The position numbers and the translations under genes are program-made. DNA of 64,000 nucleotides. Source: an uncultured Treponema sp. (GTDB taxonomy: Bacteria; Spirochaetota; Spirochaetia; Treponematales; Treponemataceae). Location: positions 1 to 64,000 of the forward strand of contig NZ_CAMHSK010000008.1 in assembly GCF_946187725.1 (NCBI RefSeq). The letters are read 5' to 3'. Numbering within the stretch: position 1 is the stretch's first letter; every line of letters begins with the position of its first letter. Of this stretch, positions 47,129 through 52,169 are shown in pieces. The notes under the pieces are model-generated. The model was not told the DNA's origin, ran no database searches, and worked only from the letters and a program-made list of their open reading frames with translations.

Positions 47129-47767
47129 TCAGTCGATGTGTTTCAAGACATAGTGAACTCTTCCGACAATTCCTAAACACTGTGAATCCTGTGGTTCTTC
47201 TTTTGTTGGATAAAGTGGATTGTCTGACTTGATGATGAACTTCCCGGAATCTTTATAAACTCGTTTTACATAACCGTCACCGTCACGCATTATTGCGTAA
47301 AGCCCTTCGCCGCTATAACCGCATGAATCGCAAAGCACCAAGTCACCGCGCCTTAAAGTGGGTTCCATGCTGTCACCGTCAACATAAAGCAAAGCTAAGT
47401 TTTCGCCGAATTGTTTTAAGTATCGTGGCACTTCCATGTAGCCGATTACTTGCGGCTCTTCCTGTAGGTACTGACCGTACCCGGCTGAAAGTTTTTGATT
47501 AAGTACAGGCACAAAGAATTTATCTGTGTCGGAATTTCTGACAACTCGCCTTTCGTTTTCTTCCAGACCGTCAATCAAAAAATTAAAAGATACGCCAAAG
47601 ATTTCAGAGAGCTTTTTTAGTTCCGCAATGTTCGGCAGGCTGTTTCTCTGAATTTTGATTTCAAGATTACGCGCTCCATAGCCCAATTTTTCAGACAATT
47701 CTCTTTGAGTTATTCCGTTGCTTTTGCAGAGATTTTGTATTCTTTCCCAGAATGAAGTTATTTCCAT
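47129..47767 (-). CDS. Phage repressor with HTH and S24 (LexA-like) domain
   Basis: 212 residues. The first 65 form an XRE-type HTH (ITQRELSEKLGYGARNLEIKIQ). The C-terminal S24 peptidase domain has the cleavage-site context LSAGYGQ, the catalytic serine in VDGDSMEPTL and the lysine in GDGYVKRVY. So it should be a CI-like repressor that self-cleaves with RecA help in the SOS response. ATG 47767 is chosen because it begins just before the HTH; upstream in-frame starts would overlap the promoter. It faces the rightward early genes. Operator-like repeats lie directly upstream. Confidence 0.92.
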   Translation of the reverse strand: MEITSFWERIQNLCKSNGITQRELSEKLGYGARNLEIKIQRNSLPNIAELKKLSEIFGVSFNFLIDGLEENERRVVRNSDTDKFFVPVLNQKLSAGYGQYLQEEPQVIGYMEVPRYLKQFGENLALLYVDGDSMEPTLRRGDLVLCDSCGYSGEGLYAIMRDGDGYVKRVYKDSGKFIIKSDNPLYPTKEEPQDSQCLGIVGRVHYVLKHID

Positions 47768-47837
47768 GCTCAAATTTTCGGCAGAAAACATCAAAAAAAG
47801 CACTGTTTTTTAAGAAATGTTGTGAAAAAGCACAAAA

Positions 47838-47882: not shown

Positions 47883-47931
47883 AGAATCAAGACAACATCA
47901 AAATGATGTAACGACAGAGCCATTAACATTA

Positions 47932-48013
47932 CAGCGCGTTGTTAATTGCTTTGGCAATTTGGGGAAACCCGGAAAGCCTGTTGGTTTGCGCTGAAACTGA
48001 CAGGCTTTTTTTT
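47932..48013 (+). ncRNA. Structured leader with intrinsic terminator before the first early gene
   Basis: Visible elements: outer arms CAGCGC (47932-47937) and GCGCTG (47988-47993); hairpin AATTGC-TTTG-GCAATT (47944-47959); GGG-GAAA-CCC with a GNRA loop (47961-47970); terminator stem AAAGCCTGT (47973-47981)/ACAGGCTTT (48000-48008) plus T run to 48013. The outer stem and the terminator stem cross, so they are alternatives or a pseudoknot. It may attenuate or antiterminate the early transcript. No known RNA family is recognised. Confidence 0.5.
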
Positions 48014-48033
48014 GTTGCAGGGGGATTGAAGGT

Positions 48034-48246
48034 ATGACAGACGCTAGAAAAGATGCGGTGTTGGCACTGACCGAGCAGATTTTGCGTGAAGCTGATGACG
48101 AGTTTAAGGGCATGGCTATTCATAAGGTCGGGGATATGTACGACAGCGTAGATATTTTCAAAGGCGTGGGCAAGATAAATGTCCGTATTGCCGGAGATAG
48201 CCCTCTTGCAATCTTCAAGGATATAGCAAGGGCGATACCTTGTTAA
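48034..48246 (+). CDS. Small early phage protein, unknown
   Basis: 70 residues with GAAGG 5-8 nt before the ATG. The sequence is acidic at first (ILREADDEFKG) and has a strand-rich second half (INVRIAGDSPLAIFKDI). No cysteine motif, HTH or membrane segment is seen. It is the first frame of the rightward early transcript, between a structured leader and the tRNA-like element, a place where Cro-like or moron proteins are often encoded, but no such similarity is recognised. Confidence 0.5.
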   Translation: MTDARKDAVLALTEQILREADDEFKGMAIHKVGDMYDSVDIFKGVGKINVRIAGDSPLAIFKDIARAIPC

Positions 48247-50281: not shown

Positions 50282-50619
50282 AAATCCTGCTGCTTTTCAG
50301 ATTGCTTTTTGAACAAGTCAATCTGGAATTGCAGAGAGGACATGAGGAATGATTTTTGATTTTCATTCAGCGTGTCTAGCTCTGCAAAAAGAAGCCGTAT
50401 TTCTTGCGGAAAATCACATTTCTCTTGACCTGTAATCAGAAAATCAAGGGAAACTTTGAAATGCTTTGCGATTGCTACTAAATCCGGGAGAGCCGGGAAG
50501 CGTTTAGCCTGTTGGCTGGAATAGTAAGACGATTGCACGATTCCGTTTTTTTCAAGCATTTCTTTCAGCGAGATACCTTCTTTTTTGCAGAGTTCTTTAA
50601 TCCGTTCGTAAATATCCAT
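50278..50619 (-). CDS. XRE-family repressor, second control region
   Basis: 113 residues. The HTH spans about 8-60 (GISLKEMLEKNGIVQSSYYSSQQ), followed by LPDLVAIAKHFKVSLDFLITG. No S24 domain, so it is not self-cleaving. ATG 50619 is chosen as the last start before the HTH; earlier in-frame starts would run into the palindromic operator 36 nt upstream. It faces away from the antirepressor and probably controls its own promoter. Its role relative to the other two repressors is open. Confidence 0.85.
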   Translation of the reverse strand: MDIYERIKELCKKEGISLKEMLEKNGIVQSSYYSSQQAKRFPALPDLVAIAKHFKVSLDFLITGQEKCDFPQEIRLLFAELDTLNENQKSFLMSSLQFQIDLFKKQSEKQQDF

Positions 50620-50654
50620 GCTTTTATGTTCGGAATAATTGCTTAAAAACATAA

Positions 50655-50673
50655 CTATCAAACAGTTTGATAG
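50655..50673. promoter_or_regulatory. Perfect palindromic operator of the second repressor
   Basis: CTATCAAACAGTTTGATAG has 9-bp arms around a central A, 36 bp upstream of the ATG of the repressor at 50619. A TTGATAGGT-type sequence continues rightwards. It is the likely binding site of that repressor. Confidence 0.65.
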
Positions 50674-50698
50674 GTGTACTTTACTTTCAAGGTAAAGG

Positions 50699-50971
50699 CT
50701 ATTTAAGCAGGTTGATTATTTCTTGTGCAAGTGCGGCGGCTTTTTCTTTGGATTCGTCTTTGGGAAATGTCGGGGTATTGCCGGAAACTAGAAATTCGAC
50801 AGAGGTGTTTAGGGCTTCGGCGATTTTTATTGCTGATGTTAAATCTGGTAATCGTTCGTTATGAATCCAACTAACGAAGGTTGCAAGACTTATATCACAA
50901 GATTTGCAAAGTTTATCTTGTGTAAGTTTTTGAGATTTTAGAAGTTCTTTTACTCTTTGCCAAAATTCCAT
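50699..50971 (-). CDS. XRE-family repressor, third
   Basis: 90 residues: an HTH (LTQDKLCKSCDISLATFVSWIHNERLP), then LTSAIKIAEALNTSVEFLVSG and a helical tail (EKAAALAQEIINLL). ATG 50971 is preferred because the HTH starts at once and three operator-like sites lie just upstream. No clear ribosome site; the leader may be short. It should repress the rightward promoter at 51005 that drives the antirepressor and recombination genes, and possibly its own gene. Confidence 0.87.
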   Translation of the reverse strand: MEFWQRVKELLKSQKLTQDKLCKSCDISLATFVSWIHNERLPDLTSAIKIAEALNTSVEFLVSGNTPTFPKDESKEKAAALAQEIINLLK

Positions 50972-50980
50972 AGTCAAATT

Positions 50981-51061
50981 CTTTGCGAATACAAAGATTT
51001 GATATTGACAAACTTTGCAAACGCATATATAAACTAAGTATAAAACTTTGCAAACGCAAAG
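50981..51061. promoter_or_regulatory. Three operators of the third repressor
   Basis: CTTTGCGAATACAAAG (50981-50996), CTTTGCAAACGCATAT (51013-51028) and CTTTGCAAACGCAAAG (51046-51061). Consensus CTTTGCnnnnGCAAAG; centre spacing 32 and 33 bp. O2 lies between the -35 and -10 of the rightward promoter, as in a lambda-like switch. Confidence 0.8.
51005..51033 (+). promoter_or_regulatory. Rightward promoter of the antirepressor operon
   Basis: Perfect TTGACA (51005-51010), a 17-nt spacer and TATAAA (51028-51033). The start is expected near 51040, giving a leader of about 240 nt. Confidence 0.8.
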
Positions 51062-51070
51062 TAAATAAAA

Positions 51071-51219
51071 AATCGGATTGTTAATCCGTTTAGGCATTTC
51101 AACAATATTTTTCGGGTACATTGTTGAACTGCTTAGTTCATAAGCCTTGTGGCTTTGCACTACCCGAACATTCATGTGTCGTAGCGTGAATGAGTGCATA
51201 AGCTACAGGGCTTTTTTAT
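51071..51219 (+). ncRNA. Structured leader RNA with three-way junction and terminator-like end
   Basis: Hairpin CGGATT-GTT-AATCCG (51074-51088). Then a three-way junction: P1 TTCGGGTA (51111-51118)/TACCCGAA (51161-51168); P2 GAACT-gctt-AGTTC (51126-51139); P3 AAGCC-ttgt-GGCTT (51142-51155). Next, competing short stems (ATTCA/TGAAT; GTAGC 51181-51185/GCTAC 51202-51206; AAGC/GCTT) end in six T residues (51212-51217). The whole lies in the untranslated leader of the antirepressor gene. The layout suggests a cis-acting RNA with a termination/antitermination choice. No named RNA family is recognised. Confidence 0.6.
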
Positions 51220-51281
51220 TTCAAGCGGTTAGGGTGTCAGATTCTTGCCGGAACTTCACCCAAAACCGCAGGGAGTTACTA

Positions 51282-52169
51282 ATGCAGAACTCACTTAGTT
51301 TGTCGGCTGAAAACGGTTTGACTTTAGCACAAAATCAGAAAGTCCAGATTGTAAGACAGGAAAATGTCTTAGGACAGGAATTCACGGTTTACGGAGATTT
51401 TGAAAATCCGCTTTTCCTTGCGAAAGATGTAGCAGCATGGATTGATTATGCTAAAACTTCACAAGGTTTTTATGATGTGTCAAATATGCTGAAAAGTGTA
51501 GATGATGATGAAAAAATTAAGATTTTTACTACTACGAACAATCTTCGTAGTGGTTGTGAACAATGGTTTTTGACTGAAAACGGCTTGTATGAAGTTCTTA
51601 TGTTGTCAAGAAAACCTATCGCAAAGGATTTCAAGAAAGAAGTAAAAAGAATCCTTCACGAAATAAGAACTACAGGCGGCTATACAGTGCCTAGAAGCTA
51701 TGCGGAAGCATTGCAGATTGCCGCAGACCAAGCAAAAAGAATCGAAGAGCAGAACAAACAGATTGAAGTTATGAAACCTTCTGCTACATCTTGGGAAACT
51801 TACGCCGGAAACATGGAGCATAGGAATTCCGAAAAGTCATTCCGGGAAGTTGCAAAACTCTTGAATCTGAATCCGCAGAATTGCCTTACAAATTGGTGTG
51901 AGAAAAACGGCTACATCTACAGGAACAAGGGCGTTTACACGGCAAGTCAGAAAGCAATCACAAAGGGAATTCTTGTAAACAGAATCGTAAACGCTGAAAA
52001 CGGTTGGAGCGGCGAACAGTGCAAAATTACCGCTTACGGCATGAGGTTCTTTTCTGAAATGAAAGCGCAGGGCGAATTCGGTTATTGCGTTCTCACAGAC
52101 AAGCCAGAGGACGGAAGCAAAAGACCTGCAAGACCTTCTAGGGATTACCGCAAGCGAGGCGATAAATGA
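51282..52169 (+). CDS. Phage antirepressor (BRO-N plus KilAC)
   Basis: 295 residues. The N-terminal half is a BRO-N domain (EFTVYGDFENPLFLAKDVAAWI, WFLTENGLYEVLMLSRKPIAKDFKKEVKRILHEIRTTGGY). A coiled segment follows (about 150-175), then a KilAC-type C-terminal domain (SFREVAKLLNLNP, WCEKNGYIYR, ITAYGMRFFSE). Such antirepressors inactivate phage repressors or bind DNA during induction. ATG 51282 has AGGGAG upstream; the leader RNA lies before it. It overlaps the next gene by 4 nt. Confidence 0.92.
   Translation: MQNSLSLSAENGLTLAQNQKVQIVRQENVLGQEFTVYGDFENPLFLAKDVAAWIDYAKTSQGFYDVSNMLKSVDDDEKIKIFTTTNNLRSGCEQWFLTENGLYEVLMLSRKPIAKDFKKEVKRILHEIRTTGGYTVPRSYAEALQIAADQAKRIEEQNKQIEVMKPSATSWETYAGNMEHRNSEKSFREVAKLLNLNPQNCLTNWCEKNGYIYRNKGVYTASQKAITKGILVNRIVNAENGWSGEQCKITAYGMRFFSEMKAQGEFGYCVLTDKPEDGSKRPARPSRDYRKRGDK

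Follow-up and report, generated by a model that had tools for sequence, protein, structure and literature searches.

A probable bistable attenuator ahead of a Treponema prophage antirepressor gene, and a family of phage leaders that share its plan

The leader that precedes the antirepressor gene of a Treponema prophage is probably a bistable transcription attenuator of the early (antirepressor) transcript. We have studied it in the window, a stretch of 64,000 nucleotides from an uncultured Treponema sp. (contig NZ_CAMHSK010000008.1), and find that its architecture is shared by about 20 sequence-distinct Treponema phage leaders in which two hairpins, A and B, carry complementary segments denoted here as K and K'. 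The sequences of K and K' differ from one leader to the next with complementarity retained and, from the sequence comparisons described below, their pairing in the family is not a matter of chance. We know of no description of a Treponema kissing-loop leader family in the open literature. A survey of 38 Treponema prophages makes no mention of antirepressor, riboswitch, non-coding RNA, leader or terminator (PMC11144348).

Results

The leader runs for ~175 nt between its promoter and the antirepressor gene and is made up, together with its surroundings, of the following parts.

51005-51033, plus strand: sigma70-type promoter, TTGACA-17-TATAAA, agreeing with 11 of 12 consensus positions; predicted transcription start near 51041
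51074-51088, plus strand: hairpin 0, CGGATT-GTT-AATCCG, from the predicted fold, with compensatory pairs in type III relatives
51090-51136, plus strand: hairpin A, with a 13-nt loop (51107-51119), from the minimum-energy fold and consensus pair counts
51111-51118, plus strand: K, TTCGGGTA, in the loop of hairpin A, complementary over 8 bp to 51161-51168; the homologous helix covaries in relatives
51125-51140, plus strand: P2, a strand-exchange hairpin formed by the 3' arm of A with the segment that follows it (GAACT-GCTT-AGTTC at 51126-51139), recurring in most leaders
51142-51155, plus strand: P3, AAGCC-TTGT-GGCTT, the 5' arm of the terminator folded on itself, seen in the alternative fold
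51142-51217, plus strand: intrinsic terminator, hairpin B (51142-51213) plus U-run (T6, 51212-51217), from the predicted fold; the stem covaries in type III
51161-51168, plus strand: K', TACCCGAA, lying mostly in a 5' bulge of B (51162-51168) in predicted folds
51225-51269, plus strand: predicted hairpin directly 5' of the Shine-Dalgarno sequence AGGGAG (51270-51275)
51282-52169, plus strand: antirepressor gene (Bro-N + KilAC ANT, from Pfam and PHROGs), the gene that would be controlled

The first-pass annotation had called the promoter perfect; it falls one position short, and a default promoter scan passes over it because it demands that the second hexamer end in T. AAACTTTGCAAACGCA occurs twice without mismatch within 51010-51058, first in the promoter spacer and again at the predicted transcription start, and the two copies are probably operators of the HTH repressor encoded at 50699-50971 on the minus strand. 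Terminator B ends 64 nt upstream of the antirepressor ATG (51282), and the closest named genome relative of the antirepressor is a Treponema MAG (45% identity). A hairpin at the position equivalent to 51225-51269 is found also at the loci L338, L342 and L348 and ahead of the unattenuated antirepressor L011/L016.

An 8-bp stem, TTCGGGTA/TACCCGAA, had previously been proposed to close a three-way junction around two small hairpins, preceded by a 6-bp hairpin and followed by a U-run. The elements are all present, with 51111-51118 joined to 51161-51168 by 8 Watson-Crick base pairs, enclosed hairpins at 51126-51139 and 51142-51155, the 6-bp hairpin at 51074-51088 and the U-run at 51212-51217, and the stretch 51071-51219 folds at -58.8 kcal/mol (z -7.3, with 0 of 200 shuffles as good); for the whole leader, 51041-51219, the values are -66.8 kcal/mol and z -8.5. 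The junction itself is an alternative conformer and not the predicted ground state, which is composed of hairpins 0, A and B followed by T6 and lacks the 8-bp K-K' helix. According to the folding, the K-K' helix in the window is a loop-to-bulge (pseudoknot) contact or the closing helix of an alternative three-way junction. P2 and P3 can form only when A is open in its outer part and B in its 5' arm, so that the three-way junction and the A+B fold are alternative states, and for an RNA ending at 51168, with K' just made, the predicted energies of junction and A fold differ by 1.3 kcal/mol (-20.7 vs -22.0 kcal/mol). As in a transcription attenuator, the terminator is placed between promoter and start codon, and a mutually exclusive fold (K-K', P2 and P3 vs A and B) is predicted to sequester part of it.

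Once K' emerges the A fold and the K-K' fold are within about 3 kcal/mol of each other in most leaders of the family. Type II leaders (the types are defined below) prefer the K-K' fold by 6-7 kcal/mol and L376, L348 and L342i prefer the A fold by 5-7 kcal/mol, so that isoenergy is not universal. After its 3' arm has been transcribed, B dominates the predicted fold. Re-pairing through P2 loses stability when the downstream sequence is shuffled (the 25 leaders have a mean z of -2.1, the mis-delimited L254 among them), though the effect is weak in the window leader taken alone (z -0.8). Self-folding like that of P3 is seen in L003, L014, L316 and a second window leader at 47914-48018 and is missing from some other leaders.

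As modelled, the leader has the anatomy of a conditional terminator, from which we infer the switching itself. In the first state A and B would be folded and a terminated RNA of about 175 nt produced; in the second, also predicted by folding, the K-K' closed junction with P2 and P3 would give a three-way junction. Forming during transcription, this junction would occupy the 5' arm and loop of the terminator, allowing RNA polymerase to pass; otherwise B would form and end transcription upstream of the antirepressor. With B folded, K-K' may survive as a contact between loop and bulge and, being sterically compatible with B in the models, could even stabilise termination rather than oppose it. 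The input rated most plausible is an RNA, namely a short terminated leader of the same type, which would use its exposed K or K' to bind, in trans, a leader still being transcribed; other candidates are a phage protein and the speed of transcription.

In order to place the leader among its relatives we could not rely on its own sequence, as a direct DNA search of 197 relatives and a phage collection with the window leader returned only itself. The leader diverges too fast, and homologues were therefore sought via neighbouring genes (antirepressor, YqaJ), stem motifs, a loop scan and covariance models. The relaxed scan for loop complements gives many chance matches inside genes, and a candidate was retained only if its terminator and start codon followed in the expected order; L201, L206/L215 and L378 were dropped as chance-like matches and the pattern CAACAAT...ATTGTTG in viral contigs was set aside as noise. 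Clear whole-genome leader matches all fall in the genus of the window, with one weaker match in another genus of the family. The order common to the leaders begins with a sigma70 promoter; hairpin A follows, carrying K in its loop, then a segment able to pair with A's 3' arm, then terminator B, in which K' is exposed, and usually a start codon. A sigma70 promoter with at least 10 of 12 matches lies directly upstream in 19 of 25 leaders, as compared with 9% of mononucleotide shuffles.

The leaders fall into three types. In type I (L003, L014, L316, L304/L280, the window leader at 47914-48018, L333, L337, L342i, L366 and L385) the terminator has K' as its apical loop. Type II comprises L005, L236, L254 and L292-L296. 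Type III includes the window antirepressor leader, L338, L342, L348 and L365a/b, along with the distant L376 found with the same model, and here K' forms a 5' bulge of B or a loop inside it, generally beneath an apical hairpin. The leader of L002 is the same as that of the window with different operators; L003, whose antirepressor is 63% identical, and L005, whose antirepressor is distant, have leaders of unrelated sequence built on the same plan. The most conserved sequence in type I is that of P2, GATTGCTTTGGCARTC, and hairpin 0 is conserved in type III, as might be expected if a phage or host protein bound the leader, for instance at one of these elements, and so let polymerase pass the terminator, or if the RNA acted directly on polymerase in the manner of HK022 putRNA. 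A single global factor could in this way release several leaders per phage; however, no motif common to all three types was seen and the maintenance of K-K' would be left unexplained, and we consider such a mechanism unlikely.

The pairing of K with K' is supported by several comparisons. A hairpin pair with loop complementarity like that of the window leader arises in 1 of 2000 dinucleotide shuffles. Among L003, L014 and L316, whose leaders are otherwise nearly identical, 4 of 7 K-K' pairs are doubly changed and 0 are broken. Pairing of K with K' is complete (100%) across five type III leaders, 4 of 7 pairs are changed on both sides and the whole structure beats all 500 shuffles and every slid control; since the scan that yielded these five demands K-K', their pairing as such is not independent evidence. 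Eleven leaders were not selected for K-K', and 10 of them have 6-11 bp (mean 7.3), compared with 3.0 bp for swapped loops and 3.5 bp (sd 0.26) for shuffled loops, all loops in this test having been delimited by hand from folds. Seven of the eleven (L376, L333, L336, L337, L366, L385 and L386) came from covariance models that carried no K-K' pairs, and L386 is a match in which hairpins A and B are present and K-K' is absent. Because MAFFT misaligns K when the window is included, the alignment counts refer to subsets without it, and support for K-K' in the window leader itself comes from the 8-bp match, the shuffles and the swap test. L334, L362, L367b and L316c are known from the K scan only and serve as examples, not as proof. 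The first-pass annotation had made its structure depend in part on compensatory changes in relatives; these were looked for and are found in two alignments.

The same changes bear on a rival account of the locus: a plain constitutive terminator, or a stable small RNA, whose loops happen to be complementary, followed by a gene with a promoter of its own. Hairpin B is very stable, and stable prophage RNAs that end in terminators are common. Against this, K-K' is retained by compensatory changes with no broken pair in the two alignments, and the distance from terminator to start codon, 12-76 nt in most leaders, is 12-21 nt in many of them, leaving no room for a second promoter. We regard this account as very improbable.

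The K and K' columns vary more than the remaining leader among L003, L014 and L316 (Fisher p 0.005 to 0.014, for columns that are not independent). This excess is what recognition specific to the loops would produce, and it may alternatively represent compensatory drift in loops; the 11-bp K-K' of type II is the same throughout, with changes in the stems. Loop-specific recognition is central to a further explanation, in which the short terminated RNA is the main product and acts in trans, its exposed K and K' binding other copies of the leader, from a co-resident or superinfecting phage, to provide RNA-level immunity or copy-number control of the antirepressor operon. K and K' lie in exposed loops of both hairpins in every type, the K sequences of the 2-4 leaders that a phage may have show no cross-pairing beyond 4 nt, and there are precedents in the short and read-through forms of IsrK, in P4 CI RNA and in c4 of P1/P7 heteroimmunity. 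On the other hand, the promoter is flanked by probable repressor operators, so that the RNA may be absent in the lysogen, K does not vary in type II, and neutral compensatory drift would also account for the variation in K. This explanation is possible, if on the doubtful side, and it overlaps the attenuator model as the possible input of the latter.

Two further leaders are present in the genome of the window:

47914-48018, plus strand: second leader (type I), with K CAGCGC (47932-47937), K' GCGCTG (47988-47993) and terminator, from covariance model and loop scan
G000 contig C50 14383-14514, minus strand: third leader, L380, with K TCTGGC and K' GCCAGA, from covariance model

The second leader scores 68.9 bits with the covariance model R2, which has this sequence in its training set; it adjoins an S24-type repressor gene (47129-47803, minus strand) and precedes an ORF at 48034-48246. 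The L380 leader occurs also in genomes G089 and G230 (L376, L377). A second antirepressor of the same genome, L011 (G000:C50 5237-6070; 49% identical), is without a terminator leader, with just the hairpin upstream of its Shine-Dalgarno sequence. Leaders of types I and II contain a CTCCC/ACTCC segment that is complementary to the Shine-Dalgarno region (GGGGG, AGGAG, GGGGT), as in L003 (2920-2998), L280 (minus strand) and L005 (1330-1413), and pairing between the two may add translational control.

Genes downstream of the leaders encode antirepressors (KilAC, Bro-N), RecT, an HNH/NUMOD4 endonuclease, a T5orf172 protein, a metallopeptidase-like protein and small ORFs. Given this variety the leader is a module of early transcripts, not specific to antirepressors. 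The phages of the window, L002, L003, L014 and L316 are ~97-98% identical, where aligned, to the left of 50,660 and to the right of 52,166, and the intervening 50660-52166, comprising operator, second repressor, leader and antirepressor, is a cassette that has been exchanged or partly replaced among them. Similarity between the window and L002 resumes precisely where the leader hairpins begin, at 51062.

Rfam 15 gave no relevant match for the window and 12 relatives at the gathering threshold, nor at E 10 around the window leader, C4 and known aptamers included, in keeping with the earlier remark that no known family could be recognised. Judged by these searches, the leaders form a new RNA family that is undescribed in Rfam 15. 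The first-pass annotation had suggested a riboswitch or antiterminator. The second of these, in the sense of an attenuator- or antiterminator-like element, is supported by the terminator, the alternative fold and the compensatory changes. A metabolite-sensing riboswitch would suit the architecture of an aptamer-like junction plus terminator, yet junction sequences are not conserved, no sequence resembling a conserved ligand pocket was seen, the pairing elements are hypervariable and the genes downstream are unrelated phage genes, so that this reading is unsupported and, in our estimation, extremely improbable.

Discussion

The leaders would constitute an undescribed phage RNA family in a genus whose phage biology is little studied. 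They provide a natural set of mutually non-complementary attenuators in which a specificity helix and a terminator are combined in one small RNA, and L003, L014 and L316, as natural K/K' variants, are nearly ready-made compensatory mutants. They also make it testable whether RNA loop pairing decides early phage gene expression, alongside or downstream of repressor proteins. A more speculative proposal, which we put forward tentatively and think rather unlikely as a whole, is that Treponema phages hold a natural family of orthogonal kissing-loop attenuators whose terminated leaders recognise only their own kind; the hypervariable, compensating loops would then be a code for RNA-level immunity or copy sensing, passed on separately from the repressor protein, and each phage would have several addresses.

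Known systems resemble the leaders in different respects. HK022 putRNA, like them, is a folded RNA at the 5' end of early phage transcripts with an effect on termination; it suppresses pausing and termination by itself, whereas the Treponema leaders include a dedicated terminator (PMC9378689). For IsrK of the Salmonella prophage Gifsy-1, the portion of the published account drawn on here describes a promoter-proximal RNA that ends at an intrinsic terminator, a read-through mRNA that includes an antirepressor gene, alternative structures, and a short form that activates translation of the read-through mRNA in trans (PMC4825925). The layout at 51005-52169 fits, at the level of sequence, an IsrK-like leader with a terminated RNA and a read-through antirepressor mRNA from one promoter; in contrast, that same portion of the account does not describe loop-to-terminator complementarity for IsrK, and the sequences are unrelated (PMC4825925).

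P4 CI and c4 of P1/P7 are also leader-encoded RNAs with complementary segments in the same leader and control of early or antirepressor genes, and P4 CI works by premature termination, as proposed for the Treponema leaders. In these systems the targets, in leader or mRNA, are bound by an antisense RNA produced by processing, whereas in the Treponema leaders each complementary segment occupies a loop of a different hairpin, the second hairpin being the terminator, and the leaders have no match to the Rfam C4 family. The pT181-type attenuators share with them a 5' leader with alternative folds, a terminator hairpin, recognition by kissing hairpins and orthogonal loops; they are plasmid-borne with the antisense RNA made as a separate transcript, unlike the phage leaders, which hold both partners in one RNA (PMC3753616). 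A promoter scan of 50400-51500 gave a minus-strand candidate near 51065-51037 (9/12), with matches no commoner than in shuffles and nothing to indicate an antisense gene. By analogy, the nearest biology of the Treponema leaders is that of IsrK, P4 CI, P1/P7 c4 and the pT181 attenuators.
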